Of a stretch of 64,000 nucleotides of DNA, positions 14,803 through 62,310 are shown in pieces. Position 1 is the stretch's first letter; each line of letters opens with the position of its first letter. The notes below the pieces were generated by a model, which did no database searches, was not told where the DNA came from, and worked only from the letters and a program-made list of their open reading frames with translations. Made by a program: the position numbers and the translations under genes. This DNA comes from Monosiga brevicollis MX1 (lineage: Eukaryota > Opisthokonta > Choanoflagellata > Craspedida > Salpingoecidae): contig NW_001865041.1 of NCBI RefSeq assembly GCF_000002865.3, positions 1,907,529-1,971,528 on the forward strand, read 5' to 3'.

Positions 14803-16911
14803 TTTCGGTTTTGAACTATTCAAGGCAACAAAGGAAAAGAACCGAGTGGCAAGCAGCGACAGCGGCAGCGTGAGGTTGACGTCCCAGGATGCTTGCAAAA
14901 AGGATGCACAGGGATTTGATTGGGTGGCCAAGGAAGTTGGGGGTCATTGCGATGCGTGTTGCGTTGCCGTGTTGTGTCGCGAGCAAACACAAGCCAAGAG
15001 AAGCGCAGGCCATGTCAAAGGCAGAAGAAGAGAGAGAGGTTGATGGATAAATGTGTGCGCGCGCTCATGTGCTGCGCGGGTGAGGGAGATGATGGAAAGA
15101 CTTGTGACGAGATCGGCACGGGCTGCCAAACGGAGAGGAGAAAAAAAAAACAGAACGAGAGGTCATCAACGCCACAGCTGCATTCTTATCCGCGGACTGC
15201 GTGCCGGTCGCGATGAAAGAAAGGGACGGCGGGTGTCGGGGTCACAACACACATCAACAGGAAGAGAGCGTTGCACAACCAACACGAGCTCGGCCATGCC
15301 TAAAAAAGCGTGCTTCTGGTGCAGAAGGGAATGCCGAGGCTGTCGAATTTTGTCTCGGGTGTGTCTCTGTATGTGTTATCGTGTGAGCGCATGTGGGTCG
15401 ATACAAACGGCAGCGTACCTTTTTTGTTTCCCAGTCAAGGGTTGTTTCAAAGTTTTGCCGTTTTTGTTTGGTTTAGCCTTTTTTAGTTTCGGCGGGGGAA
15501 CCCGGCGAGCGCGAACCGCAACGAGAGTTACGATCCGAAGAATCTGACCCAACAGCCCGAAAAGGAAAAAGGCCGAAACCCTCCAACCAGCACCGCCACA
15601 CCTTACTCTCCCCTTACTTAACCCTTATTCTCTCCCCTTACTCCTCTCTCTCCCCTCATCCTTTCCCTTGTGGCTTTGAGAACGTGCCAGTTGGTACAAA
15701 GGGGCCTTCTTGCTTGTGGCTACCACGCGGTGGGATGGACCCTTTTGGACTCAAACACTAACCCTTATGGCTGGTTGAGTTTGACGGCTTTTGTTTCGGG
15801 TCGTCACGTGTCAAATACAAAAGGCTTGGCTTAACGCTTTCCCCTTCTACGCCACGTGTGGTGCTGGTGCTGGAACAGAGTTGCGTGTGCATCATGTCGC
15901 TGGGCAAGCTTGATGGCTGTTGGGAAATGATGGTACACGGGGTTGGACCGTGTGGCTTCTCTGGGTCTTGCCCAGCGTGTGCGATCCAAAGGCAAGAGGC
16001 TGGAGTGTGTCGTATATCACGCTTGAACATCTTGATCACTCTGTGATTTTGTGTATTGACGTAAGAGCTCTTTTCACCGTCAAGCTATTCATTTTTATTG
16101 ATTGGCCAGCAAAATGTAAGACTGTGTTCGGATCCATTTTATCTGCATGCATGCAAGTTGTTCAGCGACGCTCAGCGCTATGGGTCACGCCCCTCAAACA
16201 CTAAGGTGAGACCGCGCGGTAAAGCCCCATCACACTGGCGCCACGCGCCCCTTTGTTCAGCGCCAAAATAAAGTCGATCGCTCACACAACAAAACGTCCA
16301 CCTTGAAAAAAAAAAATAAGACACTCACACACAAAAGAGAGCAAGAGCCGACTGATCTCAAGACAAAAAGTCGATGCAGCCAGCAGCAGAGGGACTCAAC
16401 CTTATTTGACCGTTGCCGGTGCTGGCTGCGCTGGAAGTCATTCAGCCGGCCGTTGACCTATGCCTGACCCAGCGCTGTCACAGCGCATCAGCCCGTGCGT
16501 GCTGCAGCCGAGGTAAATGCGTGTAAGCAACAGCAGATAGCAATCAACGTGCATGCACCCCCTGCTGCTGCTGCTGCTGCTGCTGCCACAGCCGCCGCCG
16601 CCGCCGCACCTGCGAGTTTTGCTTCGAAACTTGCGCGATTAGGACCTGCCCCACCTCAAAGTCTCGCATCTGGGCTGCCCCCAATCATCAGAACGCTACT
16701 TTGATTCAACGAGAAGACCATTGTCGAGGTCAGCGTGCCCGTGTCGCCCCAGGCGCCCATGTGTCTCAAAAACGCTTCAACCTTCTCCTTGTTGGCCGCC
16801 ATCTCATCAGCTGTCTTCCCTGTAATGTCTGCCCGTGCTTCGCAGGCATTGCTTGTCAACACGCCTCCCTCTGCAAACGGCAAAAAGTCCGCGTTCCCGA
16901 TCATCGGGGCC
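14803..16911. other. Long divergent upstream region between PABP and the receptor locus
   Basis: About 2.1 kb. A C/T-rich low-complexity block lies at about 15590-15670. A short CTG-plus-CCG triplet run at 16562-16606 would encode polyalanine in one frame. I find no convincing exon. The receptor frame is open from 16735, but residues before ATG 16912 are not needed for a signal peptide. The nearby minus-strand frame (16656-17108) overlaps the receptor start and is not supported independently. Confidence 0.45.
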
Positions 16912-19900
16912 ATGGCCGCCTCATGCGCATCGCTCCGACAATTCTCCCTCGTTCGGAAAGTTTGCGCCCACGGCCCCAAACCCCGATGGCTCGTGTGCTT
17001 TGAAACCCTCCTGCTGCTCGCCCTGCTGTGCGGGGCCAGTGCGGCCTTTTCTCCGTGCCCCGGTTCGACCTTTCGCCGACCCGGTACCAGTGACTGCCAG
17101 CGCCTCACATTATGTAAACAGTCTTCGGAATATCAAGCCCAAAGCCCAACTTCAACCTCGGACCGACGCTGTGCGCCCGTCCGAAATCTGTGCTCCCTCC
17201 CAGAGGTCGAGGTTGCACCTCCCACTGCAACCACTGATAGGCAATGCGCCGTCATTTTTGACCTGCCACTGCCCTCTCGCTCATCCAGCCAAAACCTGCC
17301 CTCTGACCTGGAGCCCTCGGTTGAGCCACACCACCCCAAGGCGCGCGCCCCGTGGCGTCAAACAAATCCCATGCTCGATCCTGTCGCGGATGTCGCTCAG
17401 GACGATCATGCACGCCACCCGTTGCGCCGCAAACGCGATTTGACAAACATGGCCGACGTTGAAGCCGCGGCTGCAGCCACCGCCACCGCCACAGCCTCCC
17501 CAACACCCACCCTGGTGCCATGCCCCGATGGGTATTTCCTCCACCCAAGCGGCGTCTGCCACCCTTGCACCTCTTGTCAGGACCATCAATATCGTCTGGC
17601 CCCATGCAATTTGTCAACAGATACCATCTGTCAAAACCTGACCGACTGCTCTCTCAGCCAGTACCAAGCTTCGCAAGGAACTGACACATCAGATCGCATC
17701 TGCTTGCCCCTCCGCCAGCAGTGTATCCCACTAACGTTTGGCCACAACTTTTTCTCTTTCCATGTTCTTGACCGCAGTGGCAGCCAGCGCGTCGACCCCT
17801 TCCTGCCCAATCTCACCGCAGCCACATTTGGTGACACTCTGGAAGCCAATCTTGCCGTGGCCATCTACCTCGGGTCCTGGCTTCAAACCAGTGCCCTGCC
17901 GGACGTTTATGGCACCTTCTTCCGCCTCTACACAAGCCATCCAAACCCTGAAGCTTGGTGTCTGCGTGGCCGCCCCATGAACCTTTCACAGACGATACCG
18001 GTCGTCAATGGCTTCAATCGACTTGGCTACCCAAACAACATTGCGGTCGAGCTAACGCTTGGTCTAGCCGCACTGCCACAAATCAACGGCATGACCATCT
18101 ATCGCCTGCCCGTGGGTACTGGTATGTTCCTTGCCCCCCGTGGAAACGGAAATTGTGGTCGCAGGGATCAACAGCTAACCGACTCCTCCGTCATGTCCCA
18201 CAGGTAACCCAGCCATCCAATTGGGGGGCACCTGGTTCACCACAGACCTGACAACGATTCAGCCTGGCGCAGCCTACATTCTCACCATTCCTGAAGACGG
18301 CCTGGTGCAGGAACCATTTCAATTCACATGGGGCCGACCCAATCGCCGCAGAACCTTGAAGCCGCAGCCAGACCGACGGACGCTGCCTCGCCCGTCCATG
18401 CCGGATTCAATGCCACATATGATTCCCTTTAGCAAAGATGCCCATGACACAACGTGCAGATACATTTTAGCCGCCCCCGAAACGAACGTGCAAGTCTCAG
18501 TGTGGGATCGCAGTACTCTCCTGAGCCGCGTCAATAGTGTTTTGGGCCCCAACGGCGAGATCTTGCGCCTAGACTTGCCACTGCATCCGACATTTAGCCT
18601 GCAGCTTGTGACATCAGAAGCTAGCGGGTTCCTTGACTTGGAGGAGTTACCAGAGTGCTCAAAACCAGGAAGCACATTTGGCCACTTATTTGCCCCACTT
18701 CCCCTCCCAAGCTGGCGAAGGTCGATTTCCCACGCACGTTCGCGGCGTGCCAATGAACCGGACTGGCAGGTAGATGGTAATCAGTTTCAAAACAGCATGC
18801 AGCTCATGGCAAACGCCAGCATTAATGGTCAGCCCCTACGCAACCCAAGCGCTCGACTCGCCAGCTTTACCGATGGCCGGCTCTCGGGCACTGTATCAAG
18901 TATGCTCAACTTTGGAGACCAATACTTTTTCCTGATGGCCGTGGGTGGCAACAATGCTGGTGAGGTGGTAACGCTGAAGATCTATGATCCGGACCTAGAT
19001 CTAGTGCTAGATGCGAATGAAAGTTTTGACTTCCAGCCAAACGGACGACAGGGTGATGTCGTGTCCAACAGTCTATTTGAGCTAACCGCACAGGCCACGG
19101 CATCTTGCAACTACAGTCTCCAATACCTGGATGAGCAAGGAGAATGCCAACAGATAACAACCTGCACAGAAGATGAATATGTGTTGAATGAGGCTACAAG
19201 CACAAGCGACCGGACATGCGTCAATTTGACAGAGTGTGAGGGCGACGAGGTGGAGTTTGTTGCAGCCACGGCAACAAGCGACCGCACATGTCGGTTGTCG
19301 TGTACTCTGGGCGTCACTTATGCATGGAATGCGAGCCACTGTGAAATCTGCAGTACCTGCGACAGCGGCGAGTTTGAGGCCGCAGTCTGCACCAACACGA
19401 GCGACACGGTGTGTCAGCCCTGCGCGACCTGCGACAGCGGCGAGTTTGAGGCCGCAGTCTGTACCAACACGAGCGACACGGTGTGCCAGCCCTGCGCGAC
19501 CTGCGACAGCGGCGAGTTTGAGGCCGCAGTCTGTACCAACACGAGCGACACGGTGTGTCAGCCCTGCGCGACCTGCGACAGCGGCGAGTTTGAGGCCGCA
19601 GTCTGTACCAACACGAGCGACACGGTGTGTCAGCCCTGCGCGACCTGCGACAGCGGCGAGTTTGAGGCCGCAGTCTGTACCAACACGAGCGACACGGTGT
19701 GTCAGCCCTGCGCGACCTGCGACAGCGGCGAGTTTGAGGCCGCAGTCTGTACCAACACGAGCGACACGGTGTGTCAGCCCTGCGCGACCTGCGACAGCGG
19801 CGAGTTTGAGGCCGCAGTCTGTACCAACACGAGCGACACGGTGTGTCAGCCCTGCGCGACCTGCGACAGCGGCGAGTTTGAGGCTCACGGCTGCTCAGCC

Positions 19901-22900
19901 CTCAACGACACGGTGTGCCAGGCATGCTCCATTTGCGCGGCACACGAGTTTGAAGTGGGCCCCTGCTCCGGCGACACTGATCACCAATGCCAGAACCTGA
20001 CCATATGTGTGGGTGATCAAATCGAATCAAGTGCACCAACGGCTACCTCAGATCGACTTTGCGAGCTTGCGTGCGAGGATGGTTTAACCTTTGACGATGG
20101 CGATCCTGTTGCTTGCGAGGTGTGCAGCACATGTGGCAATGGCTCTTTTACCGTCTCAAACTGCACGGTCGTGTCCGATACTAGCTGCACAGCCTGCAGC
20201 ACATGTTCGACTCATCAGTATCTGGAAAAGGCATGCACGCCCTGGTCTGACTCGGTGTGTCACAACCTGACGATCTGCAACAGTACGAGAGAATACGAGT
20301 CCGAAGGCCCTTCAGCAACGTCAGACCGCACGTGTGCAGATTTGGATGTATGTGACTTTCAAATTGAGTTTGTGGCCGCCAACGCGACGGCCACGAGCAA
20401 CCGGGTGTGCCAGCTGCTAACCGAGTGCCAAGGTGACCAGTATGAAGTGGAAGCACCAACCATGTACTCAGATCGAGTCTGTGGTGGCATTCCAACCTTC
20501 AACTCCAGTGTATATATTTATGGACAGCTTGCCTCTGGTTCCGGCCTGGGTGGTGTAGTTATTGAGGGCCCAACCCAGGTGGCACGGGGCGAGTATGACT
20601 TTAGCGTTGTCGCGGGTGCCAGTGGTACCTTTGTCGCATCAGCCGTGGTGGCACAGGGTGTCTCATCCTTCACCAGCGCTCGCCGTGCAGCCACATCGCT
20701 GCGCGGATATGCCAGCCCATCTGATGTAGTTTATGGTGACAACGGCCGCATAACCGTGTATGTGCAGGCTTTTGACGACGTTGGCTCGACCCAGGTTTTG
20801 CCAGGCACACTCGTGTCAGTGCGGCTAAACCCACACGGAACCCTTGTCACAGATGCTAGCCAACCTGTTACTGGCTCGTGTACTGTCGATGCAATGGATG
20901 GCATCTGCAGCGTGACCCTCAGCTTGCGTGAAACTTGGCTCATGGGAACGGCCAGCGACGAGGACCACATCACTGTTGAGGCTGGTTTGGCCAGCCCGGA
21001 TGAGGTCCAACTAGGCAATATTAGCGTCATCCGACAGCTTGCGACGGCGATCTCCGACAACATTTGGATTGATCTGCCGCAGACTAGCATGTATGCCGGT
21101 GCCTCTGCCGTAGCCCGTATCTACAGCAACACAACGTACGCTATTGGGGGATTCACCATTCAGGTCACGTGCGAAGGCTCTGACATCTTGATTGAGGATG
21201 CCAGTGCTGACAGCAACATTTGGAGCGGTGCACGTGCACTCCTCCCCAACGGCACCAGCGTTCGCCTTGTTTACACGCTCAAGAGTGGACAAAGCGCCCC
21301 AGTAGATGCCAGCGGGGCTGCCTTACTAGCTGAGATTCAGTTTGCTGCTGCCAGTACCTTGAACGGTGTTGAGGTGTTCAGTTTGATCAGACTCGAAACG
21401 CGCGGGTTGTTGGATACCGCGGATGCCACTCGCGTGCCTGCTGGCGAGATGACCTTTCCTGTGCCCGGCATTGTCGTGTCGCGCGATGGTGCGAGTCAGA
21501 GTGAAGGTCGTGTATATGCGCGCTCCGATCAGCCCATAGGCCTGCTTGGTTACCTTTCTCAGGTCGAGTTGGTCAATACGGCCGTTCTGACTGAACAGGC
21601 TTTTTCTGCAGCGTCCTTTCGGGCGTGGAGTGTCATGCATTCGGGCCAACGCGTGCCGCACACTTTGACGTCGCTGGCATGTCGCGTCGAAGGTGCAAGT
21701 GATGTCGCTACCATTGAGGCCGGTTGTGTCGGACTCTCACTATCAGCCAGCCATACTCAGGGCAGTGGCGTTGTGTCATTTGTGGCGGAAGACACTGAAC
21801 GCAGCTTGGTCTTGTCACTTCCATTTCGCGTCATGTACCCAGAACTCCCGTTGACCGTTTCTGTTGACCGTTCTCAATTACATCGCGTCGAGGACTGGAT
21901 TGGCCCTGTCAGCCTCGCTGTGTCCTGTTCGGGAGCTGGCTGGCAGTCTGCTGCTGTGCGAGTATTGGCACGCTTCTCGGGCGCGGGCGCATCGTATGAA
22001 TTTTGAAGGGGATGTGACGAGCTTATTGTCCATTTCACAGATCCAAGCCACCTCCTCGGCTATCTTGTCCGTGGAAGCTGGGCCCACTGATTTGAGCGGA
22101 GATGTGCGTGTTCGCGGCATCGAAGTGGGGAGCAGCGAATTGCGTGTCGTACGCGGGTCCACCGAGCTTGGTCGCACTGGCACTATTAGCGTTCTGAGCA
22201 CGAGTGTGCGGGCAGTAGCTATGGACGTACGGGCAATCAGCCAAGTGCGCGCAAACTTCATGGGCACGGTTGGCTCCATGCCCTCGGTCGAGCGGGTTCG
22301 AGTGCAAGTCGTCGAAGCTGCGCTCAAAGCTGAGGGCTCATCCGTGCGCATGGTGGCTTCTGCGGTTTACGCCGACGGCACGCGCGAACCACTGACGGCT
22401 GCATTGGGCCTCATGTTCAACAGCTCAGACTCACAGCAAATTACCATGAGCACAGACGAAGCGTCCGTTGCTGTGGGTGCTGCATCGGGTGTTGGTCCGT
22501 ATGTGCACGCCGCGTGGTCTTCGGTGTTGGCCAATGGTAGTGTCTGCGAGAATGCTCGTGTGGCATCAGGCTTTGGAAACCTGACCATTGATTTACCACC
22601 TCCTTCGAGCGTCTCCATCAGTGGCGTGGTCTCTCGTTATGTCCGCACAGATGATGTGGCGCGTTTTGCTGGTGTCAGCACAGGTTCCGAGTTGATCGTA
22701 CGCCTTCAATTTTTGGATGGTAGTCAACGCACCATGACATCAGACACGCGTACGGTTTTTGACACCAGCAACAACAATGGAGTCTTCACGGTTGAGTATG
22801 CTGGCTCAACTGGGGCGCGCATCGTGCCTCTACAAACTGGCACTGGGATGCTCACCGTTAGGTTTAGCAATCCAGCCTACGCAAATGTATCAGCAAGCGC

Positions 22901-22974
22901 TACGATTCGGGTGGTCGAGTACAGCGCTTTGAGCATCTCCTCTACCCCAGAACCGGATACACCGTTCAGCAGTA
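16912..22974 (+). CDS. TNFR-repeat / TMEM132-like cell-surface receptor, part A (3' end lost in assembly gap)
   Basis: Exons 16912-18121, 18204-21961 and 22041 to the gap; the two introns (82 and 79 nt) have GT-AG ends and keep the frame, giving about 1967 residues. The order begins with a long n-region and a hydrophobic signal core (CFETLLLLALLCGASAA). Cysteine-rich TNFR/Eph-receptor-like modules follow (17050-17240, 17515-17735), then a unique extracellular region of about 1.4 kb. A long cysteine-rich array (about 19140-20490) includes seven exact-type 24-aa repeats. Next comes a cohesin-like beta fold (about 21045-21360, starting ISDNIWIDLPQ). The last part resembles the Ig/BIG-like modules of TMEM132 proteins (about 21460-22920). 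A membrane segment is not seen before the gap. It is either the N-terminal half of one huge receptor continuing at 23026 or a paralogue whose 3' end is missing. Confidence 0.7.
19355..19930 (+). repeat. 72-bp tandem array (TNFR-like cysteine repeats), array 1
   Basis: Seven almost identical 72-bp units from 19355 to 19858, then a diverged unit. Each encodes 24 residues beginning TCDSGEFEAAVC and ending DTVCQPCA, with four cysteines. The only variation is at silent or near-silent sites (for example CTGC/CTGT and TGTCAG/TGCCAG). Such homogeneity implies recent expansion or concerted evolution. Confidence 0.95.
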
Positions 22975-23024
22975 NNNNNNNNNNNNNNNNNNNNNNNNNN
23001 NNNNNNNNNNNNNNNNNNNNNNNN
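22975..23024. other. Assembly gap of 50 N
   Basis: Fifty N bases of unknown true length. The reading frame before the gap and the frame after it are not in register across the 50 N. Sequence after the gap begins exactly at the start of a 72-bp repeat unit, which suggests a repeat-induced break. Confidence 0.99.
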
Positions 23025-23025
23025 T

Positions 23026-23670
23026 ACCTGCGACAGCGGCGAGTTTGAGGCCGCAGTCTGCACCAACACGAGCGACACGGTGTGTCAGCCCTGCGCGACC
23101 TGCGACAGCGGCGAGTTTGAGGCCGCAGTCTGTACCAACACGAGCGACACGGTGTGCCAGCCCTGCGCGACCTGCGACAGCGGCGAGTTTGAGGCCGCAG
23201 TCTGTACCAACACGAGCGACACGGTGTGTCAGCCCTGCGCGACCTGCGACAGCGGCGAGTTTGAGGCCGCAGTCTGTACCAACACGAGCGACACGGTGTG
23301 TCAGCCCTGCGCGACCTGCGACAGCGGCGAGTTTGTGGCCGGAGTCTGCACCAACACGAGCGACACGGTGTGTCAGCCCTGCGCGACCTGCGACAGCGGC
23401 GAGTTTGAGGCCGCAGTCTGTACCAACACGAGCGACACGGTGTGTCAGCCCTGCGCGACCTGCGACAGCGGCGAGTTTGAGGCCGCAGTCTGTACCAACA
23501 CGAGCGACACGGTGTGTCAGCCCTGTGCGACCTGCGACAGCGGCGAGTTTGAGGCCGCAGTCTGTACCAACACGAGCGACACGGTGTGTCAGCCCTGCGC
23601 GACCTGCGACAGCGGCGAGTTTGAGGCTCACGGCTGCTCAGCCCTCAACGACACGGTGTGCCAGGCATGC
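23026..23670 (+). repeat. 72-bp tandem array (TNFR-like cysteine repeats), array 2
   Basis: Eight full units (23026-23601) plus the same diverged final unit as array 1. The order of silent variants in the first copies matches array 1, and near-identity continues about 145 bp beyond the array to about 23745. It differs by one extra unit, in which EFEAAVC becomes EFVAGVC. Confidence 0.95.
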
Positions 23671-26600
23671 TCCATTTGCGCGGCACACGAGTTTGAAGTG
23701 GGCCCCTGCTCCGGCGACACTGATCGCCAATGCCAGAACCTGACCGTATGTGGAAATGATGAGATTGTTGTTCAGCCAGCAACCACCACCTCTGATCGAG
23801 TATGTGCCTCGATCGAGCATTCGATTGTCCCCATTGAATGGTCTGCTGCTGTCTCTCCCCCGGAGTTTGCTGCTTTTGAATGGTGTGAGGGCAATCAAAG
23901 CTGCTCCGTCCTGACCAATGCTGCAGAGGTGCTTGTGACGGCTGATGTTGGCTCGCTATCGTCGTCATCAACGCTCTACTTTGACGTTCGTAGCCCGGTG
24001 GCTGGTCTCCATTTACAAGCAGCCACGCCACAAGTGTTTCGACCTGCGAACCCAGCTGACTCTGCCAGACTTGACCTTTTTGTCTGGACCACAGATCGAC
24101 TTGGTAGTCTCACGCCGGCTCGTGAAGATATCATCGTGGATCTGGCTCATCCACTGTCAAACTCTGTACTCTCGCGTGTTCTCAAGCCTGGCGATCAGGC
24201 AATCTCGGCTTTCACTTTTGACATTCCATATGATTGGTTCTCAAGTCAGTCGGCGACTGTATCAATCACTGCATCCTACGCAGCTCAGGACTTATCAGCA
24301 GACTCGACAATCCAGCTGGTGCGACCTGCCGCTGCCATGAATGATGCCGAAAATGCAATTTTGATGTATCTCCCAACGGCTCCTCAGATTGGTGGCGATT
24401 CTTTTTCGGTTGAAGTTTGGACTGATGTGACCGAAAATGTGTCAAGCTTCACGTTGTCTATTGAGTGGGATGCGACAGCTCTGGCTCTTGAATCGGTCAA
24501 ATTTGATGCCGGGGAATGGCAAGGCCGATATTCCTCTGCCGGCAAAGAACTGGCGGCCAATGGCATCCATGTTGGCAGTGGTGATTCCTCTTATAGTCGT
24601 TTGCTCTCGGCTACTTTTCGCGGCCTGCCTGATGGAGGCCGGGCCATGTTGTCTGCGCAGGGCAGTTTGCATGATGAGAACAACAACCCGATTGAAGTTG
24701 ATGGCAGCTTCCAGGATGCCCTTTTGACCATAGTCTCGCGCGATGGCCGGGACACGAGCGGATACGTGTACCTTACCAATCTCGAGCCGATCCTGCTTCT
24801 TGGCACTTCCTCCTTGCCATTTTGGGTGGATACATCCCGCCTTGAGACAGACAGCAATACGGGTATCGAAATCCATCTTGTACAACTCTTTAACGACGGC
24901 ACAGTTGCATCAACGGATGTACAATCGTGCCGTTTTGCTGGCTCTCTTCGCACTTGCTCTCCAGCACAGGCATCGGAAGATGGAACTCATTCTCTCGAAA
25001 TTTTTGCTGGCGAACTTTCTGCTAACATTGATGTGATTATTTACCGGCCATCCAATATTGCAGTTCTTGTCGATGATCTGGAGCTGAACCGCTTAGACTT
25101 GAGCAATTGCTCGACGCGATATCAACGCTCGCAACTTCGTTTGCAGGGAGTGATCAACGGACGTGAAGTCGACTTGTCGGCCTATCTCAAGCCATCCCAC
25201 GTGAGCGTGGACGACTCCGACGTGGCTGCCATTGGAGTCGCGCCTTCGGGCTCCTTATATGTGCAGGGCGTGTCTCCGGGTAGCACGGTCGTACGAGTGG
25301 CGATGCCTGGCTTTGAGAGCGATTTGACCGTGCTCGTCACACCCGCAGCAGTTGAACCGGTGCAACTCTCGGTTGAAGTGATCACGACCATTGCGATCGA
25401 ACAAGATACGCTAGAAGCCGTGGTGCGGCTCTCAAGCGAGTTTGTGCGCGAAAAGCAGCAAGGCTGGTTAATAGCGCAAGTATCATACAGTGATGCCACG
25501 TCAAGGATGCCACGTGATCAGGATTTACAGCTTGACATGCTGCAGGCCGAAACGGCTGTGGATATCAACGGCACTGCCCTTACAGCGATCTCCCAGGCCA
25601 ACAATGCCGTGCTTCAAGTGACGTTGCTGCCTGATAGCTGTGTCGTAGCGCAGCCCATTACGGCTATTACCCCACTCGACTTGCACCTACCTGACCCTAC
25701 TGGTATTGTGGTAAGCGTCTCTTCTGCAGCGATTGCGGCTGCGAACAGCGTTGCAGCCTGTGCAGGGATTACCACCCAAGCCACCCTGTCCGTAGTAGTG
25801 CAGTACCCCGGTTATAGCCTGGATCTTAGCCGCGACGATCGCATGCGAGTCAGCCTACCGGAGACTTTGAATCTGACTGATACCCGCCTGGTGGTCACCC
25901 AGGCTGTACCGGGACTGTATCTAGTCAACGTCAGCTTTTTACACATCAATTTGACTGGTAGCGTGGCGATTAGTGTTGCGGTGGTGGACGAATTGCGTAC
26001 GGTGCTACGACCTTGGCCAGCCTACGCAGGCTCCGGCAGCGTGATCATGAATTCACTTCACCCCATCGAAGGTACCGACGTAATTCAACGAGCCCAGCTT
26101 GAAGCAGTGGTTACTCTCCTGCCAAATAGTCTTGGCTCGATCGATGTGAGCCACATGCTTTCCGTCACAACGCCAGATACTCAGCTGAGCATTGTTGACA
26201 CCAACCGCATCGTACCATTGTCGGTGCAAAGTGGCTTGCGATCGGTCACAGTGCAGTTTTGCTCGCTTGAAACGGTGGTTGATGTGGTCCTTTCTCAGGT
26301 TCCACGCAGAATTGCCGGCATCTTCCCGACAGCGTTCCCCTCTACCCTGAGCGGAATTGCTGGTTCGTCTGTGCAGTTGCAAATCGACGTGGAGCTGGAT
26401 GATGGCACCCGTTGGAATGCAGCCGATTCGTACACAAGCGAAGGCGATTATTTGCTCGCAGGGGCCGTCATTTGGGAATCCACAGACAGCAGCGTGGTTG
26501 TGGATGGTGAAAACGGAATGCTGCTCCTGATGGGTAACTCTTTTACTGCCACTGAAATATTTGTGACATCCCCATTCACATCCGCTAACGCTCGAGTGGC

Positions 26601-29499
26601 AACATTTGTCAACCTAGTGCCTGAGCCTGGTGACATTGACCTGGGCGCCAGTTCGGGCGCAGCCCTAGGCGAAGATTGGGGATTGGGAGGAAGCCTGACG
26701 ATCCCGGTCCGCGTCAATGCGGGACTTACCGGTCTCGCTGGACTGGATTTGACAATCGAGTACGACCCAGCTGTGCTTGCCATTCAAGCTGTGGAACCTG
26801 GCAGCGATTGGGTTGGCAATTCGTTCATCTTTACGGCCAATGATCCGCCTGGTCAATTGCGCTTTGGTGGCACTACGACGACGAATGACGGCATCGTTGA
26901 AGTGGCAGTCATCACTTTTTCCATCATGGGAACGGAAACAGACCCGGCATTGCATGGATATGCCACAAGCGTGTCCGATGCCGAACGACGGGGTATCGGT
27001 TCGCCCACGCCGCGCGCTTTTGTGGCCGGGGACCTACGCGTCGTGGGCCCCGATCGGTTTCGCCGAGGTCGCATTGATGCAACACGCTGGCGACGTGATC
27101 AGTGCGCTACACACAAGGTCGTGGGGGATGCAGATGCAGACTGCGTCGTTGGTGTGAATGACGTGTTATATCTGCAGGACTACCTCGTCCAAGCCCAGGT
27201 AGGCCCAACTGCAGCACCTCCTTTAGAGCCGGGACAACTGGACGTGGACCTTTCGGGAGACGTGACCATTCTGGACGCTGTGCACTTGTTGCGCGTAGTG
27301 TTTGGTCAGCTGCGCTTGCTGTCCCAGCCCACTGTGACGTCAGTGCGGACTGGCCCCTATTGTCGAGTTGTCATCACGGTCAACATGACCATGGCGACTC
27401 AAGCCCCAGCCGTCAACCGCACTTTTGTCTATTTTGATGTGGAGCACCCAAACCTCGCTGGAAGCTGGGAGGCTGTACAGGCAGATCCGGGGCTGGATAG
27501 CATCAAGACGGGTGCGGGTCTGGGGGGTGCTGTGGTGCGTGCGCGCGGCTTGGCCTCTGGCCTATACGAGGCACACTTGGAGGGTCTGCCCACAGTGCAA
27601 GGTGTCGGTCTGAGTGTGATTCAAATTACTACGGATCAAAATGGGGGCGTGGTCGCATCTCGTCGATTCCTACACGTTGGTAGTCGCGTGGGCTCCTTTG
27701 CATACCCGGCTTTTACCTTTGATGTATCGGCACCAGCCGCAGCTGCGCCACTCCCAACAGCCATTTTTGGCTATTCGCCCTTGCTCCGGTTTGACGTGGG
27801 CCGGGGCGGTGCTTGTGGGAATTTTGCTTCGACCACGACCACCGCCGAACCCACGACTTTGCCGAGTCAGGCGGACGACTACGATTTCTTGGCGAGCACG
27901 ACTTGGATTGTGGTGTTGATAGTCTTGATACTTTTGGTTTGTTGCTGCCTGTGCCTGTGCTTCTGCTGCTGGCGCCGGCGCATGCCTCAAGACAAGGAGG
28001 GCGATGATGTTACAAGTGAGTCACAGCTGTCTGGACGCCGGGCAAAATACGATGTGGCGCGCGCACATGCAAAGGGTTATGATTTCAACAATGCTATGCA
28101 CGAACCCGTGACCCTTGTCTCAAGTCGACGAATTGGCTCATACTACCATGAGGATGCGGAGGAGCCGGTACAGCCAGAAATGATCAACCTGAACCTCATG
28201 TCTTTCAAAGAGCACGATGTGGACGTGTCCGACACTGGGCATGACGTACAACTGGGTGAGGGGCCCGTCGCGGAGACGATCTTGAGCGGGGCTGGCCGCA
28301 GTAAAAACCCTTTCCTACCGGAAAACAATGATCCGGATGAGGATTTGTACAGCGATGACGAGGATCTGTACAGCAGTCGCGCTTCGGACAATTCTTTGGT
28401 GGCCGCTAGATCAAACGCTCAGAAGAGCAAGCAGGGAGCAACCGACCAGTTTCAGGCCGTGCTGCACAATCCCACATATGACCCTTTCAATGTACGCGAG
28501 GTGCCCTCGCTCGATGATGATATGGCGACCAGCATGGGTGGAGCTACAGCAATGACCAGCCTCTCCGGGCGCAGTAGCTTGCGACCTTCCACGTCTGCAG
28601 CCACGCCACCGTCTGCGGGCAGAAGAGGCGCGTCGAAAGCCTTGCCCGCCTTGCGAGAGACGAACATCGATTCGAGCATGCCAGATAATGGTGCGCGGGC
28701 TGCGCCACACGAGGACGATTTTGTTATCCTGGATGAACACGACCGGCCCATGACGGCCGCAGCGACAGAGCTGTCTTCAATTGAGCTCGGTGCGTCTCGG
28801 GCAGGAGGTTTTGACGACGCCTCTGGCATTCAAGCGTTCAGCTGGTTACCAGGCGCCACAAGCAAGGCCGGGCGGGCTTTTGAGCAGTCCATGGATGGCG
28901 GCTCGACCGAGGTCACCTCGATGACTCCAGAGCTTCCACACCACATGGACGACTTTGACGAAGTAATGTCACCCATGTCCAAGTCGATGACCGCGGCAAC
29001 GAGGACGGCGGCGCCACGCGAGGTGCTGCGCAAGTATGGCGAGCCTCACTTGCTAGAGTTGGTTGTGGAGAAGGGACCCGGTGAACCGCTTGGCCTGGTG
29101 CTTGAGGAACGGACTGACGAACCTGGCGTTTTCATTGGCAGTGTAGCCTTGGACAGTCCTTGTCGTGACCTGGTTCAAGAGGGTGATGAGCTGTTGGCCA
29201 TTGGTGCCACCAACGTTCGTCAAAGCGGCCTCGACCGTGCACGTGAAGAGCTGTCAGCGGCGACTCAGTTTCAGCCCATCCCAATGGTTGTCGGTCGACG
29301 TGCGGAGCTGCAAGACACCAGCTTGCGCGATTTGGCGTCAGCCGGCACCGGCAAATTCAGCCTGGCGCGCCCTCTGCGCAAGGCTGGCCTGGCTCAGGCG
29401 GAGAACGGTTCCCAGCGCTTCAAAAACACGTTTTCCGTCAATGATTTTACTCCCACGCACCCGGGCGTTGACCCCGATGGAGATGATTCTGAAATCTAG
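23026..29499 (+). CDS. TNFR-repeat / cohesin / TMEM132-like transmembrane receptor with PDZ tail, part B (5' end at gap)
   Basis: One open exon of 2157 residues from the gap to TAG. Order: eight full 24-aa TNFR-like repeats plus further Cys-rich units (to about 23815), then a beta-rich domain. A cohesin-like domain (about 24345-24650) includes SFTLSIEWDATALALESV. TMEM132-like modules follow (about 24740-26610; for example SGYVYLTNLEPILLL and YLKPSHVSVDDSDVAAIG). A second cohesin-like domain (about 26660-26950) includes LAGLDLTIEYDPAVLAIQ. A dockerin-like pair of Asp-rich loops lies at about 27126-27315. A transmembrane helix (about 27895-27960) is followed by a Cys/Arg border. The acidic cytoplasmic tail has an NPTY motif at 28468-28479, a candidate PTB-domain ligand, and a C-terminal PDZ domain (about 29040-29310). 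It is likely a plasma-membrane adhesion or sensing protein. A PDZ domain inside a receptor tail is unusual. It may be the same gene as the part before the gap. Confidence 0.75.
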   Translation, partial: TCDSGEFEAAVCTNTSDTVCQPCATCDSGEFEAAVCTNTSDTVCQPCATCDSGEFEAAVCTNTSDTVCQPCATCDSGEFEAAVCTNTSDTVCQPCATCDSGEFVAGVCTNTSDTVCQPCATCDSGEFEAAVCTNTSDTVCQPCATCDSGEFEAAVCTNTSDTVCQPCATCDSGEFEAAVCTNTSDTVCQPCATCDSGEFEAHGCSALNDTVCQACSICAAHEFEVGPCSGDTDRQCQNLTVCGNDEIVVQPATTTSDRVCASIEHSIVPIEWSAAVSPPEFAAFEWCEGNQSCSVLTNAAEVLVTADVGSLSSSSTLYFDVRSPVAGLHLQAATPQVFRPANPADSARLDLFVWTTDRLGSLTPAREDIIVDLAHPLSNSVLSRVLKPGDQAISAFTFDIPYDWFSSQSATVSITASYAAQDLSADSTIQLVRPAAAMNDAENAILMYLPTAPQIGGDSFSVEVWTDVTENVSSFTLSIEWDATALALESVKFDAGEWQGRYSSAGKELAANGIHVGSGDSSYSRLLSATFRGLPDGGRAMLSAQGSLHDENNNPIEVDGSFQDALLTIVSRDGRDTSGYVYLTNLEPILLLGTSSLPFWVDTSRLETDSNTGIEIHLVQLFNDGTVASTDVQSCRFAGSLRTCSPAQASEDGTHSLEIFAGELSANIDVIIYRPSNIAVLVDDLELNRLDLSNCSTRYQRSQLRLQGVINGREVDLSAYLKPSHVSVDDSDVAAIGVAPSGSLYVQGVSPGSTVVRVAMPGFESDLTVLVTPAAVEPVQLSVEVITTIAIEQDTLEAVVRLSSEFVREKQQGWLIAQVSYSDATSRMPRDQDLQLDMLQAETAVDINGTALTAISQANNAVLQVTLLPDSCVVAQPITAITPLDLHLPDPTGIVVSVSSAAIAAANSVAACAGITTQATLSVVVQYPGYSLDLSRDDRMRVSLPETLNLTDTRLVVTQAVPGLYLVNVSFLHINLTGSVAISVAVVDELRTVLRPWPAYAGSGSVIMNSLHPIEGTDVIQRAQLEAVVTLLPNSLGSIDVSHMLSVTTPDTQLSIVDTNRIVPLSVQSGLRSVTVQFCSLETVVDVVLSQVPRRIAGIFPTAFPSTLSGIAGSSVQLQIDVELDDGTRWNAADSYTSEGDYLLAGAVIWESTDSSVVVDGENGMLLLMGNSFTATEIFVTSPFTSANARVATFVNLVPEPGDIDLGASSGAALGEDWGLGGSLTIPVRVNAGLTGLAGLDLTIEYDPAVLAIQAVEPGSDWVGNSFIFTANDPPGQLRFGGTTTTNDGIVEVAVITFSIMGTETDPALHGYATSVSDAERRGIGSPTPRAFVAGDLRVVGPDRFRRGRIDATRWRRDQCATHKVVGDADADCVVGVNDVLYLQDYLVQAQVGPTAAPPLEPGQLDVDLSGDVTILDAVHLLRVVFGQLRLLSQPTVTSVRTGPYCRVVITVNMTMATQAPAVNRTFVYFDVEHPNLAGSWEAVQADPGLDSIKTGAGLGGAVVRARGLASGLYEAHLEGLPTVQGVGLSVIQITTDQNGGVVASRRFLHVGSRVGSFAYPAFTFDVSAPAAAAPLPTAIFGYSPLLRFDVGRGGACGNFASTTTTAEPTTLPSQADDYDFLASTTWIVVLIVLILLVCCCLCLCFCCWRRRMPQDKEGDDVTSESQLSGRRAKYDVARAHAKGYDFNNAMHEPVTLVSSRRIGSYYHEDAEEPVQPEMINLNLMSFKEHDVDVSDTGHDVQLGEGPVAETILSGAGRSKNPFLPENNDPDEDLYSDDEDLYSSRASDNSLVAARSNAQKSKQGATDQFQAVLHNPTYDPFNVREVPSLDDDMATSMGGATAMTSLSGRSSLRPSTSAATPPSAGRRGASKALPALRETNIDSSMPDNGARAAPHEDDFVILDEHDRPMTAAATELSSIELGASRAGGFDDASGIQAFSWLPGATSKAGRAFEQSMDGGSTEVTSMTPELPHHMDDFDEVMSPMSKSMTAATRTAAPREVLRKYGEPHLLELVVEKGPGEPLGLVLEERTDEPGVFIGSVALDSPCRDLVQEGDELLAIGATNVRQSGLDRAREELSAATQFQPIPMVVGRRAELQDTSLRDLASAGTGKFSLARPLRKAGLAQAENGSQRFKNTFSVNDFTPTHPGVDPDGDDSEI

Positions 29500-37459: not shown

Positions 37460-38696
37460 TTAAAAGTCAGCATCCAAGGTAAAGACGTGCTGGTCCTTGT
37501 CGGCCATCACACCAGCCTTTTGGTACTCGCCCACGCGCTTCTCAAAGAAGTTGGTCTTGCCCTCGATGGAGATGCTCTCCATAAAGTCAAAGGGGTTCTC
37601 CGAGTTGAAGATCTTCTCGCACCCCAGGGCCACCAGCAGGCGGTCTGAGACAAACTCAATGTACTGCTTCATCAGGGTAGCGTTCATGCCGAGGAGACCG
37701 CAGGGGAGAGCGTTGGTCAGGAAATCCTGCTCAATCTCGACGGCATCCATGATAATGCCGGTCACGCGCTCCTTGGAAGGGCGCTTCTTGAGCATGCTGA
37801 ACATGAGGCAAGCAAAGTCAGTGTGCAGACCCTCATCGCGGCTGATGAGCTCGTTGGAGAAGGTGAGGCCAGGCATGAGGCCACGCTTCTTGAGCCAGAA
37901 AATGGCAGCAAAGGAGCCCGAGAAGAAGATGCCCTCGACGGCCGCAAAGGCCACCACACGCTCACCAAACGAGGCCTTGTCGTGGCTGATCCAGCGCATG
38001 GCCCACTCGGCTTTGCGGCGCACGGCTGGCAGCGTCTCAATGGCGTTGAAGAGGCTGTCCTTCTCAGCAGAGTCGTTGACATATGTCTCAATCAGGCGCG
38101 AGTACATCTCAGAGTGAATGTTCTCAATGGCAATCTGAAATCCGTAGAAGCAGCGGGCCTCGGGCAGTTGGACTTCAGTCATGAAGCGCTCAACCAGGTT
38201 TTCGTTGACGATGCCATCACTGGCGGCAAAAAAGGCCAGGACGTGCTTGATGAAGAATTGTTCGTCCTTGTTGAGCTTGTTCCAGTCGACCAGGTCACGA
38301 CCCAAGTCCACCTCCTCGACCGTCCAGAAGGAAGCTGTCATCAGCCCAAGGCATCACCACGACGCGCGCGAATAGACAGGGCAGTGAGTTGATAACGAAG
38401 CTGACGGGATGGTGGAGATATCCCGCAAGTGATTGAGGTCTCGGAAGAAAAGCGAGCTCACCTTCGGCCTTCTTGTACATTTTCCAGATGGCATCATGCT
38501 GGATGGGCAGGATGACAAAGCGGCGCGGGTTGGCGCGCAGCAGAGGCTCGGCCTGAATCTCTTCGGGCGTGAGCATGGTGCATTCATCAGAGGCCAGCGC
38601 GGCCTTGGCTGCCACCTTCAGGTTGGCTAGATCTTCAGTGATGGTGGCAGTGTGGTCGGTCACCGAAGCGGTGGTCGAGGCGGGAGTGTCCAACAT
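37460..38696 (-). CDS. RRM2: Ribonucleoside-diphosphate reductase small subunit (R2)
   Basis: Two exons. Exon 1 (38696 to about 38462) begins [20 protein letters not shown] and ends WKMYKKAEG. After an intron of about 120 nt, exon 2 starts with [20 protein letters not shown]. It carries the di-iron and tyrosyl-radical centre ([53 protein letters not shown]). The C-terminus FTLDADF is the R1-binding tail. Length is about 370 aa, close to animal RRM2. R2 generates the radical that lets the R1 subunit make deoxyribonucleotides. An N-terminal KEN box like that of animal RRM2 is not apparent. The upstream region contains E2F- and Myb-like sites (separate entries). Confidence 0.95.
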
Positions 38697-44750: not shown

Positions 44751-47700
44751 ATGTCGACCATGTCCCTGAGCCGACCACTGTTTGGGCTGGTTCTGGTCCT
44801 AGCATTCGACGCGCCGATTCGCTTGGTGTGCGGCGAGCCGATCAAGGTCATCATCGCGCCCCATACTCACCTGGGTTGGTTGCTCGTGCCTCGCTGGGTT
44901 GAAAACAAACTCCTCGTCTCTCGGCAGTGCACCCTCACCAATCTTGCCGTGGCTACCTCCCCAGATGTTGGGTGGCTGGAGACGATGGATTCGTATTACG
45001 ACCTCAACGTGAGCCATATCATTCCCGGCGTGCTTGATGAGCTGGATAAGGACCCGACGAAGCGCTTCAGCTGGGCAGAAGTGGTTTACCTCAAGGTGCC
45101 GCGTTGCCCCGGCATGCTCACCGGCCGCCCTCTTGCAAAGGCCACCCCCCGCCACCACTGATGAGCTTCTCCTCTTTTTTGCAGCTCTGGATAGAGCAAG
45201 ACGCCACAAGTGCCCAATTAGCCACGCTCAAGCGCCTCATTGCCAAGGGCCAGTGGTCCTTTATCGATGGAGGCATGGTCCAACATGATCAGGTCAGGTC
45301 AGCCCGCCAGCACCAGATGCAGATACAGGGATATCCACAGACGTTGGCGCACACAAACTGACCGAAATACAACGCATGGAGACAAAAATTTGCGTTTCAG
45401 GTCCATGGGGAAAAGGGCAGCTGGCCGATGAGCCGACGCACATGACGAAGTCGCCCGTCGTGCCACACACCTCACACGCTTAAACTCCCCAACAGGCCTG
45501 CCCGACAACAGAACAGATATTGCGCCAGATGAGCGATGGCCACCGCTACTTGCAAGACCACTTTAGCACCCGACCACGCGTGGGCTGGTCCATAGATCCC
45601 TTTGGCTCTTCCAACATCAACGCCCTGTTGTATGCCACCATGGGCTTTGACGCCCTGGTCATTAACCGTATTCCCGACGATGAAATGAACCTGGGCAAGG
45701 CCAACCGCCAACTTGAGTTTGTCTGGCAACCCTCACCCATCCTAAACGATAGCACCGCCCGACTCTTCACTCACATATTTGACTCCTACTACTGCATGCC
45801 CGGTGGCTTCCGGTGGGGCATGGAAGGCGATACGAGCCCAGACATCACCCCAGCCAACGCGGCCGATCGAGCCCAAGCCTTTGTGCAAGCCGTCTTGCCC
45901 CGAGCTGACTGGTACCGCACGCCCTATGTCCTCGTCCCTTGGGGCTGCGACTTTATGTATCAAAATGCCACCCTAGTCTTCTCCAACACGGACCGACTCA
46001 TGGCCGAAATCAACAGCAAACCTCAAGTCTACAACATGACCATCCAATACGCCACTGTGGATGAGTATTTTGCCCTCCTTCAGCGTCAAAACTACACCAA
46101 GTGGCCCACTCGCGGTCCGCGCGACTTTTTCCCGTTGGCCTACAACATGCAATCCTCCAAACAGGTTCAGCAATTGCCCCCCGCCCACCATCATTTCTTG
46201 ATATCCGATGTCGTGGCTGTCCCTACCAGCCCCTGAGAAGGACTTTCGTTGATGAGAATGGACCCCGCGGTTGCCCATGCTAGGTGTGGTCTGGCTTTTA
46301 CACTTCGCGCCCGGTGCTGAAGCAACGGTCACGCGATGCCCACGATTTCCTGATCGCCACAGAGGCCCTCTTGGGTCTACACACAAACTTCTCCGCCGCT
46401 ACGGTCGGTCACTGCCCCACTTCGCCCGTGCCATCTCCATCCCGCACAGTCGGACTCCATCCTCAGGGCCATGGCTTCCCGTTTGCACCTCACCCCATGA
46501 TGATCTTCTTTGGCTGGTCTCCCCGCCAGTCCGAGGCCCTGGTGGCAGCCTCTACCCTCCAAGATATCATCTTGCACCACGATGCCATTACTGGCACAAT
46601 GTGTGTGGCAGAAGAAGGGTGCACCGGCGGTGGACAGACCGGGGGCGATCACAACGTACTCGACGACTACTATCGCCTTCTTGACGAAAGCGAAGCAACT
46701 ATCTGGAAGTTGCTCCGTCAGGTAAGACGAATGAAGCTTATTCTGTCACAAACTCGGGAACTTGACCCTCTTCGCCGCCTGCTCTGTCTCGCCAGGGCCT
46801 AGCCAACGGCACCTGCTCCTCCTCTGACCTGTTCTTGTCTGAGGATCGAACTATTCTCCGCGCTCTGCAGCGCCGCCAAACAGTAAGGCAGCCTACAATG
46901 TTGCAATGATGTTGAGCGCAGGCCACGCTTTGAGTGCTGTTGCTCACCTTGGCCAATGCATCTAGGTGCAATATCACGTCTTCAACCCGACCCCACACAA
47001 TCAGACCTTTGTTGTGGTGTAAGTGTCTGGCGCAAATCTGCTAGCAGTTTTCCATTTTACCCCGTCTCGTATCGGCTGACGACGACCATGCCATGCGCGA
47101 TCCTGTGGCTGCTTTGCAGACTCCCCTCCGTTGTCACTGCCGTCACCACTCATGATGGTGCACCCGTTCCCGCTCAAGCTGTACCTTCGGGGCTGTACGG
47201 AACCATGTACGTCTTTCAAACTAAAAAACAATCACTGGAGGCGCACGAGCGCGCAGCCCTGGCACTCACGATGGCCGTTGCTGTTTGTCGTGGCAAACTT
47301 TGCCTCTGATTTGCTCTTGCTCCTCAGCATTCCCCGCGGCTTGGCTCGACGCATGAACGATCCTACTCGAGTAGTCTTGGACCTCGCCCCCTTTGAGCTG
47401 CACACCATTAGTGCTGCTTCAACCGTGCCCTATGCCGGTGCCCACGCTGGGCAAACACATAACACCTCACGCACGGTTGTCGTGCCCCATTCCACGGTGC
47501 TGCCAAGGGAAGACCAGACGTTTTCCACGACCAACGGCGTCTTCACTTTGGAGGGTACTCTCACGCAGGGTTGGTAGTGGAGTGATAGTCTCCCCAGCCT
47601 GGGGTCCGCTTCAGTCGCAGCCCATGCCCGGCTGAATGATGCCGCGTACTTTTATTGTTTGTAGGCGTCACTCGCATAACCAATCTCCGCACCAACGTCT

Positions 47701-60247: not shown

Positions 60248-60479
60248 AGTTGCTCGAAGTCAAACTGTTCGAGCTGGACCTGAAAACCCTCAAGTGAAGG
60301 CTGCTTTTGCAAAGCTCTTTTGAAGAAAAAAAGCTCGAAGAAAAGCTGCTCATGCCAAGGCTGCTCGAAAACGCGCTGCTCAAGCCAAGGCTGCTCGAAA
60401 ACGCGCTGCTCTAGCAAAGACTGCTCGAGGACCAGCAGGGGCTACTGAAGCAAAGGCTGCTCAAAAACGCGCTGCTGCA
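60248..60479 (+). repeat. Duplicate of the repeat gene's 3' segment (copy of 59191-59392)
   Basis: Near-identical copy, offset about 1057 bp, of a stretch beginning AGTTGCTCGAAGTCAAACTG. It has one extra 30-bp unit, and a C-to-T change turns an Arg codon into an in-frame TGA at 60321-60323. It leads directly, in one open frame, into the vWFA/kinase-like gene. Confidence 0.9.
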
Positions 60480-60539
60480 GCAAAGACTGCTCAAAGACTG
60501 GCAGCGGCTGCTAAAGCACAGACTGCTCAGGTCCAACCC

Positions 60540-62310
60540 ATGCGCGTTGAACTAGCCTCCACTCTTATCGTTTCCCCTCAAACCTTGAGGGACGCAGCAC
60601 TGTATGGTCGCGAGGATAAAACTCGTCCAGGGCCAAGTGGTGAAGTGCGGTGTAAGTTGATTCATCATGGCGTCGTGTACATCACCGACGAAACGAAAAG
60701 CACAGTCATCACTCATTGGCGCCTTGACGGTCAACGCAAAGATGACGTCAAGAGTTTGGTGAATGTTTTTGAGAGCGTCCACATTGTGCTGGTGGTTGAT
60801 GGTCGTGGACTCATGCGCGAGGACGGCGTCACTCAATATCAGTCTCGCGCAGAGGTCGTCTTCATGTCCCTCCTCAAAGTTTTTCGCGACTTGCAGGCTA
60901 ATGCCAGCCGTGATCTTCAAAGCGCCCTGAAGAACTTGTCTATTTCCCTGATTCTCTTTGCAGAGGAAGCAAGAGTTGAGCTAAACCGGGTTCCTCTGAG
61001 TCCAGCTCTCTTGTCAAAGCTTCAAGATCTTGCAAAGGCAGTTGCCAGTGATCAGGGGTCTTACTTATCTGGATTGACGGCCCTTGAAGAGCTGTTGGGA
61101 CCGGAAGTAGAGGCCAGCTCGCGCATTATGGTGCTCTGGCTCAGTGATGGGGCGCCCAGTGACCATGTCTTCGAGCGATGCTCCCATGACATCGAGGTTT
61201 GGAAATGCCTTGACGATTCCGACGATTCCGACGATTCCGACGAAGCTGATTGTGTCAAAGGTGATGCCTGTCGAACAGAAGTCAAAACAAACGTTCGAGA
61301 GCAAATCTTGCGCCGCGTTCAGCGCCTTGGTGATACGCTTGGGCAAAATCGCTTGAGCTTCAATACCGTTGGTTTTGGGCCAGTAGACTCGGGGTTTGAA
61401 ATGCTTCACGACATGGCTGCTGTCTTGATACATGGTCAATGTCTCAGCCTGGGCCTTAACGTGGCTGCTCTTATCAATGCTTTTTTGACATCGACCGAGA
61501 CTAGCTCAACGCTTCTGTTGGCGACCGCCGGCAAGCGTCAAGAACAGGTCAGAAATGAAGTGGTGGAGAAGCGAGCATGGCACCTGTATACCAACCGCCT
61601 GCGTCGCAAGTATACGTTTAGCAAGAAGCAGCGGTTTCGGAGTCAGCGACTGGTGCCGGGAGCTGACGGCATTGGCGTTTCCAAAACACATTTTTCGTCG
61701 GGCCGAGAGCGTTACGCCTTTGATTGCACGGAGGTGGCTCGCGAGCGTGCAGATGCAGCGCAGGTCAAGGGGCTCCGTCTTGTCGCCAAGAAGAGTCGAG
61801 CTGAGAAAAAGTTGAGGTTCTATGAACAAAGCGTCAAAACGCAATCGGCTGCCCAAGCGATGGCCGACTGCTTCAACAAATGTTTGCAGGCTTGTTTTTC
61901 CAGTCCTCAGCCCACATTGCTCCTCAATTTTGTGCCTTGTGCGATTTACGAGGTTGATGATGCCAGTCGTTCAGGTGGCAGAGCCTGGTTCTTGGCCGAG
62001 CCGTTCCTCGAGGGCAGGTTCTGCCAATGGAACGCCAAACAATGCTGGTGGTGTACGGAAGAACATTGGTGTAACAGTGCGTATCGGTACTAGCGAGCTG
62101 TGTATCGACGACGTCACTCAGGCCTTCAGTCACTTTTCCTATAGACGGTCCAACTGTTCAATGCTGATCTGCAACATTCAGGGCATTTGGAATGAATCCG
62201 ATGGTTTTTGGTTAACTGGCCCGGTCATTCATTCTGACACCGATGGAGAGGAGGGCATCGACAAATTTTTCCATTCCCACAGGTGCTCCAAGTTGTGCCA
62301 AATGCTCTGA
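60540..62310 (+). CDS. von Willebrand A plus alpha-kinase-like protein, probable pseudokinase
   Basis: The frame is open from 60324 and the first Met is at 60540. A vWFA-like domain (about 60770-61170) has the core VHIVLVVDGRGLMR and IMVLWLSDGAPSDH; the MIDAS DxSxS is replaced by DGRGL. A DDS triplet repeat follows. The atypical alpha-kinase fold then covers GLRLVAKKSR (ATP-site Lys), the block RFYEQSVKTQSAAQAMADCF, LLNFVPCAIYEV, AWFLAEPFLEG, TQAFSHFSYRRSN and EEGIDKFFHSHRCSKLCQM. The acidic residues of the usual DLQG and TDP motifs are Asn and Gly here (CNIQG, LTGP). The reading frame changes near 62020-62090: either a 76-nt intron (62018-62093) or a single-base shift. The nearest known architecture is Dictyostelium VwkA. 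Start and connection to the upstream repeat gene are uncertain. Confidence 0.7.

Follow-up and report, generated by a model that had tools for sequence, protein, structure and literature searches.

A candidate giant receptor of Monosiga brevicollis joins TNFR repeats and TMEM132-type modules to a cohesin-dockerin cassette with predicted convertase sites

The TMEM132 proteins, variants of which have been linked to hearing loss and panic disorder, share a domain order that was described already in 2017 in the lefftyrins, coherins and hedglings of choanoflagellates and sponges, and vertebrates have no detectable dockerin partner for them (PMC6030884). Some hedglings are reported to carry TNFR domains as well (PMC4054682), and a further study counts 44 TNFR-repeat proteins in Monosiga brevicollis, none with a death domain (PMC4979521). 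Here we consider a stretch of 64,000 nucleotides from M. brevicollis MX1 (contig NW_001865041.1, positions 1,907,529 to 1,971,528; hereafter the window), of which positions 16912-29499 of the + strand are likely, if not proven, to form a single gene for a giant type I membrane receptor of about 4,150 amino acids. A previous sequence-only reading had seen there a signal peptide, TNFR-type units, cohesin-like and Ig/BIG-like segments, a transmembrane helix and a tail with an NPTY motif and a PDZ domain, and had taken the gene for an early TMEM132 relative. Its observations hold, whereas its interpretation is supported in part, and of its evolutionary story one part had been published before and another lacks support. 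Absent from it were a dockerin and the R-x-R-R sites before it, which we think are the most interesting part of the locus. Choanoflagellates are the sister group of animals, and here members of the TMEM132 module family do have a dockerin, which adjoins a second cohesin with convertase-type sites between the two. It is this previously unnoticed cassette of cohesin, sites and dockerin that deserves to be followed up.

The cassette lies at the membrane-proximal end of the predicted ectodomain, and the features from there to the C-terminus are:
26641-27042 (+): cohesin-b, the third cohesin (PF00963, E 9.9e-11, 42.4 bits, cut-off 24.1)
27055-27066 (+): R-F-R-R, predicted proprotein convertase site 1, a pattern match in the linker
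27085-27096 (+): R-W-R-R, predicted proprotein convertase site 2, a pattern match in the linker
27118-27324 (+): dockerin with two calcium-loop motifs, DADADCVVGVND and DVDLSGDVTILD
27325-27783 (+): conserved domain, also present after the dockerin of several paralogs
27898-27969 (+): transmembrane helix (Kyte-Doolittle peak 3.6)
27970-29496 (+): cytoplasmic tail of 509 residues after the helix
28468-28479 (+): NPTY motif, a pattern match
29059-29292 (+): PDZ domain (Pfam, 25.6 bits, cut-off 23.2)

The sites at 27055 and 27085 are the two R-x-[KR]-R matches of the ectodomain near the membrane. Profiles from which the window had been left out recover both partners, namely cohesin-b at an independent E-value of 4.3e-28 and the dockerin, using ten other dockerins, at 1.4e-14. 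The family profiles, each of which includes the window sequence, match solved cellulosomal cohesins (best 1.3e-6) in the case of cohesin-b, and in the case of the dockerin match solved dockerins best (1.2e-8), with EF-hand proteins lower.

The same arrangement recurs across the genome, which was searched with profiles over its 39.5 Mb in 57 contigs (other loci are named below by contig). Within the loci examined, to which all cassette counts are limited (PF00404 matches on C56, C35 and C11 and two on C31 are uncounted), the dockerin profile yields 16 matches in open frames. All 15 that have upstream sequence are directly preceded by a cohesin-b match, and R-x-[KR]-R occurs no more than 90 residues upstream in 15 of the 16, the remaining one lying at a sequence edge. 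Once two identical duplicates are removed, 13 distinct linkers remain, spread over 12 open frames. Seven of the cohesins and 11 of the dockerins (13 distinct ones of each) had contributed to the profiles; the other two dockerins are found nonetheless, and so are the six cohesins outside the cohesin profile, at E 4.8e-6 to 1.9e-20. Both calcium-loop patterns are present in 12 of the 13 dockerins, that of C54 (95 kb) matching the second only. The sites themselves are strongly concentrated: there are 27 in the 1,352 residues upstream of dockerins versus 8 in 37,333 residues elsewhere in the same frames, a 93-fold higher density (the 27 of 35 being a count that includes the two identical duplicates and one overlapping pair). 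Likewise, the 60-residue windows of all 13 distinct linkers contain a site, whereas 5,000 shuffles that preserved composition produced 1.3 such windows on average and never more than 6.

A convertase-type site between a cohesin and the adjoining dockerin suggests that the chain is cut there and that its halves are kept together by the pair. We accordingly put forward, as a proposal from sequence that we regard as an even call, that a furin/kexin-type convertase would cut the R-x-R-R sites between cohesin-b and the dockerin in the secretory pathway, after which the calcium-bound dockerin would grip cohesin-b in cis. The very large N-terminal piece would thereby be retained on the cell as the non-covalent partner of a short membrane piece, comprising the dockerin, the conserved domain, the transmembrane helix and the tail with its NPTY motif and PDZ domain. 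The product would be a calcium-dependent, force-sensitive two-piece receptor, in which pulling, calcium loss or a ligand could set the outer piece free or send a signal into the tail. Between the cohesin and the last site there is no cysteine in 12 of the 13 distinct cassettes, so that no disulfide from that stretch would bridge the cut; on the dockerin side two to five cysteines are present in 11 and none in two. Bacterial cohesin-dockerin pairs rupture above 120 pN (PMC6030884), and a study of proprotein convertases describes PCSK-family proteins in a choanoflagellate, R-X-R/K-R as a site common to PCSKs and a Furin cut at S1 in Notch-type receptors (PMC2770060). In the M. brevicollis genome the convertase P-domain has three matches, a count of domain matches alone; two of them (C33:124392-124742 and C53:245888-246223) lie in open frames of 6,256 and 9,628 residues, which is unusual for a convertase.

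Several points weigh against this proposal. The convertase study reports no bilaterian-type Furin outside bilaterians and no grouping of choanoflagellate PCSKs with it (PMC2770060). The Pfam dockerin model PF00404, with 13 matches in the genome, does not reach the window dockerin at E up to 1 either there or on the window pieces, and the domain is thus named dockerin-like by its paralogs rather than as a Pfam member. A structure model of cohesin-b plus dockerin from one sequence was unusable (predicted local distance difference test, pLDDT, 31). Three matches to the cohesin-b profile, in frames of C34, C37 and C54:1268086, have no dockerin within 330 residues, the one of C34 being a cohesin-a; and the 13 cassettes are paralogs of one genome and hence not independent events. 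In the window itself, the first TMEM132-type module has neither a cohesin-b nor a dockerin ahead of an assembly gap, and the gene model spans this gap plus a frame change.

Two other accounts of the cassette have to be considered. The sites might be cut and the ectodomain shed, with the freed cohesins binding dockerins of other molecules or neighbouring cells as a matrix or adhesive velcro and without any hold in cis. The cleavage-site evidence serves this account equally well, the frames of C40, C38 and C34 with two cassettes each would suit multivalent networks, and bacterial cohesins and dockerins usually act between separate proteins; however, the cohesin adjoins its dockerin in every case with upstream sequence, which suggests one unit, and we consider shedding rather unlikely, if the more serious of the two. 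Alternatively, the receptor might be an uncut adhesion rod of one chain, whose basic linkers serve as flexible spacers or as patches that bind polyanions. The linkers are indeed arginine-rich overall (12.3% vs 4.8%), and composition by itself generates some sites in the shuffled windows, but the observed number is far above that expectation, lysine is scarce (0.9%), and 19 of 23 sites precede A, S, T, G, D or Q. We therefore regard the uncut rod as unlikely.

Should the cut followed by a grip in cis be correct, it would represent a new kind of receptor clasp, and would offer a testable idea of the module's first role. To our knowledge such a clasp is unlike the Notch, GAIN or SEA domains, and the idea of a cleavable cohesin-dockerin clasp was not found among the open papers listed for cohesin, dockerin, choanoflagellates and convertases (subscription papers were outside the scope). 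Extending it to the 12 cassette-bearing frames, one may tentatively imagine a pre-animal family of giant M. brevicollis surface proteins, cut by convertases into pieces held by calcium-dependent clasps, of which TMEM132 would be a descendant without the dockerin; we think this possible, though short of probable. The cassette can occur independently of the TMEM132-type module, as those of C37:102972-109196 and C4:36003-48170 occur in frames without a listed match to PF16070, the fourth TMEM132 domain. On C38:611515-622080 a pair of module units, spaced 4,749 bp apart, has the same scores and the same linker and dockerin sequence, and is a product of recent tandem duplication or homogenisation. 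Yet another frame, C31:376525-382296 with its upstream part, combines cadherin, TNFR, TMEM132-type and EGF domains with a cohesin-RRRR-dockerin cassette. It is possibly a hedgling, in which case a cut there would release a Hedgehog-bearing ectodomain.

Upstream of the cassette the window protein holds two TMEM132-type modules, each with a cohesin distinct from cohesin-b:
20500-21050 (+): region occupying the position of the TMEM132 conserved region/second domain (PF23481 weak, at E 0.2)
21053-21481 (+): cohesin-a1, TMEM132-type (leave-window-out profile, independent E 1.2e-15)
21554-21847 (+): TMEM132 fourth domain (BIG1), PF16070 (E 1.9e-7, 31.3 bits, cut-off 27)
22005-22956 (+): further BIG-like domains of the first module (paralog homology, best E 3.6e-29)
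24235-25140 (+): second TMEM132-type module with cohesin-a2, fourth domain and the start of the next BIG (independent E 3.8e-18)
24346-24591 (+): matched part of cohesin-a2 (leave-window-out profile, independent E 3.7e-10)
25027-26640 (+): additional BIG-like domains (PF23486 and PF23487, both weak; paralogs at E 3.6e-26 and 1.2e-17)

These assignments draw on an alignment in which the two modules of the window stand beside 12 segments of nine further loci (three of C40, two of C22 and one each of C38, C27, C31, C10, C11, C54 at 95 kb and C34), and the leave-window-out module and cohesin-a profiles were built from those 12 alone. The module profile recovers 20948-21985 at 3.3e-46, and the fourth domain of the second module is detected via the paralog profile only. 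At least three cohesin-like segments had been proposed, and the leave-window-out profiles bear all three out; Pfam itself calls the third only, finding no cohesin at E up to 5 and no TMEM132 cohesin-like domain in cohesin-a1 and cohesin-a2 scanned alone. Five of the 14 aligned cohesin-a segments match the TMEM132 cohesin-like domain PF23039 (best 2e-5) and one matches Cohesin, and hence that domain is assigned to the window through the alignment with paralogs only. Profile-profile comparison with hhalign relates cohesin-a to cohesin-b at 96.7% probability (P 3.8e-10), and at 95.7% without C34u2, with reversed controls at 0.1%; this value requires the paralogs, since the two window segments alone give 34.7%. 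Against solved structures the cohesin-a profile gave two matches, both scaffoldins but not significant (E 0.56 and 0.73). A structure model of cohesin-a1 plus the fourth domain from a two-row alignment reached a pLDDT of 40 with no residue at or above 70. In Foldseek its ranks 1-4 are the cohesins 2jh2 (three chains, best E 2.7e-4) and 1g1k, rank 5 is a related clostridial module, and from rank 6 on cohesins stand among unrelated proteins. As low-confidence models may give meaningless matches, we count this ranking as a hint only.

The PF16070 match and the PF23039 matches of the aligned segments uphold the proposed relatedness to TMEM132, and the former does the same for the Ig/BIG-like stretches. 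The second, fifth and sixth TMEM132 domains score E 0.2, 0.028 and 0.067 in the window, all under cut-off; in paralogous loci PF23486 reaches 1.4e-16 and PF23487 reaches 2.4e-11. The BIG region also contains two stretches of weaker hydrophobicity, 25702-25764 (peak 1.8) and 25930-25986 (peak 1.78, against a threshold of 1.6), which we read as beta strands. Genome-wide, PF16070 has 14 matches, 13 over cut-off, at nine loci including the window, and protein search alone adds a tenth module locus, C54 at 95 kb. TNFR and PF16070 share an open frame also at C31, C34 and C11, with PF16070 just under cut-off at C34 and TNFR under it at C11. The view of the window gene as a special early TMEM132 relative that gained a TNFR front end is therefore not sustained, and the pre-animal TMEM132 architecture is not new.

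The TNFR part of the protein is extensive, with 3+13+11 = 27 TNFR_c6 stretches recognised by Pfam (E up to 1 each; protein E 6.5e-14, 6.3e-62 and 1.7e-45), which bears out the several TNFR-type units of the earlier reading. Its arrays and sites are:
17425-17436 (+): R-R-K-R convertase-type site near the N-terminus
18737-18748 (+): R-S-R-R site, the only R-x-[KR]-R of frame 18179-22003
19358-19933 (+): left TNFR array, eight 72-bp units, the last diverged
23029-23676 (+): right TNFR array, nine 72-bp units that share 99% identity with the left array

The 72-bp arrays flank the first TMEM132-type module, and beyond them the cohesin-a regions are only 25% identical. The right array carries variants absent from the left and is thus a true second copy, recently duplicated or homogenised. 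A DNA search, which skips common words, found no such array elsewhere in the genome. The two N-terminal sites suggest that the receptor may be cut there too. Between the TNFR blocks, 17740-19100 has no other Pfam match at E up to 1 and is beta-rich by eye.

The gene model that unites these parts rests on + strand frames extending from 16912 to a stop at 29497-29499, in more than one open frame, and its left half and break points are:
16912-18121 (+): exon 1 from a candidate ATG at 16912, with the hydrophobic leader and 3 TNFR_c6 stretches
16981-17064 (+): hydrophobic leader (Kyte-Doolittle peak 2.13), starting 23 residues past that ATG
18122-18203 (+): intron of 82 nt, GTATGT...CACAG, GT-AG, frame kept
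18204-22001 (+): first part of exon 2, with 13 TNFR_c6 stretches and then the first TMEM132-type module
21996-22010 (+): 1-nt frame change at a homopolymer (run of T), a probable assembly error
22975-23024 (no strand): assembly gap of 50 N, apparently a fixed-size placeholder

The leader accords with the signal peptide noted earlier; further in-frame ATGs of exon 1 lie at 16759 and 16825. A single gene requires the intron, a 1-nt correction near 22,000 and the crossing of the gap. At the gap the left edge ends in GCAGTA and the right begins with TACC (GCAGTACC precedes the left array); overlapping these edges by TA, together with the 1-nt correction, gives an in-frame join with a coding length of 12,453 nt, or 4,150 residues. 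Three other gaps in the loci examined measure 50 N (C41), 139 N and 1,435 N, and the recurrence of exactly 50 N makes a placeholder probable.

It could be argued that the assembly has joined two neighbouring genes, a left one (16912-22974) without its 3' end and a right one (23025-29499) without its 5' end: a gap beside near-identical arrays is a spot where a scaffolder can err, and the first module is without the usual cohesin-b and dockerin. Nonetheless, the edges join in frame to a whole-codon total, the gap looks like a placeholder, and the arrays differ in variants, so that one sequence has not been used twice; two genes seem to us improbable. A real frame change near 22,000 in a decaying left half is less probable still. 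Frames do change there, but the protein stays open and aligns with paralogs on both sides of the break, which sits at a homopolymer about 1 kb from the gap. An intron at 21962-22040 behind the frame change was also considered; its phase fits, but it would delete a stretch that aligns in paralogs, and a 1-nt assembly error is preferred as the probable cause. A single gene thus remains the favoured reading of the locus.

In a search of the genome with the C-terminal part, no match at E up to 0.01 extends past 27867 and none into the tail. The helix at about 27.9 kb, the NPTY motif and the PDZ domain had all been noted before and are present. For the PDZ domain as a built-in scaffold, it stands that none of the other 145 PDZ matches listed (best 150 of 197 candidates) shares an open frame with PF16070, with the limit that this test works exon by exon and a PDZ on a separate exon would escape it. 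A built-in PDZ domain looks like the only feature that sets the window gene apart among TMEM132-type loci. Elsewhere in the genome, one PDZ stretch agrees at all 68 of 68 residues with the solved mbDLG protein 6X1P, which is assigned to M. brevicollis (PMC8512817), whereas two other PDZ stretches match mbDLG incompletely. The tail also has one match to an ad hoc WIRS-like pattern. Neighbouring frames of the window match glycosyl hydrolase family 38 (45484-46233, +), an alpha-kinase (60324-62090, +) and the ribonucleotide reductase small chain (37463-38353, -).

In comparison to known systems, the window protein shares with animal TMEM132 a cohesin-like domain followed by BIG domains and a single transmembrane helix, its first module having PF16070 above cut-off. 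To these it adds a second module, TNFR arrays, one more cohesin, a dockerin preceded by basic sites and a PDZ domain in the tail, and by pattern this tail has no RVxF match. The TMEM132 five-domain order is found in lefftyrin, coherin and hedgling cadherins too, and some hedglings have TNFR domains in addition (PMC6030884; PMC4054682); unlike them, the window protein has no cadherin match (four pieces, Pfam, E up to 1), and of the loci with TNFR and PF16070 it is C31 that also has one among the best 150 of 288 cadherin candidates. With the TNFR superfamily it has in common TNFR_c6 repeats in a membrane-protein ectodomain, and differs in having no death domain match by Pfam at E up to 1. Its cohesin-b and dockerin resemble solved bacterial examples, but unlike the cellulosomal pairs they are neighbours within a single membrane protein, separated by R-x-R-R. 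Finally, the halves of Notch associate through the Notch heterodimerisation domain. The window receptor likewise has R-x-[KR]-R in its ectodomain and would likewise be associated non-covalently, but it has no Notch-type domain match (Pfam, E up to 1), and its clasp would instead be a cohesin-dockerin pair.

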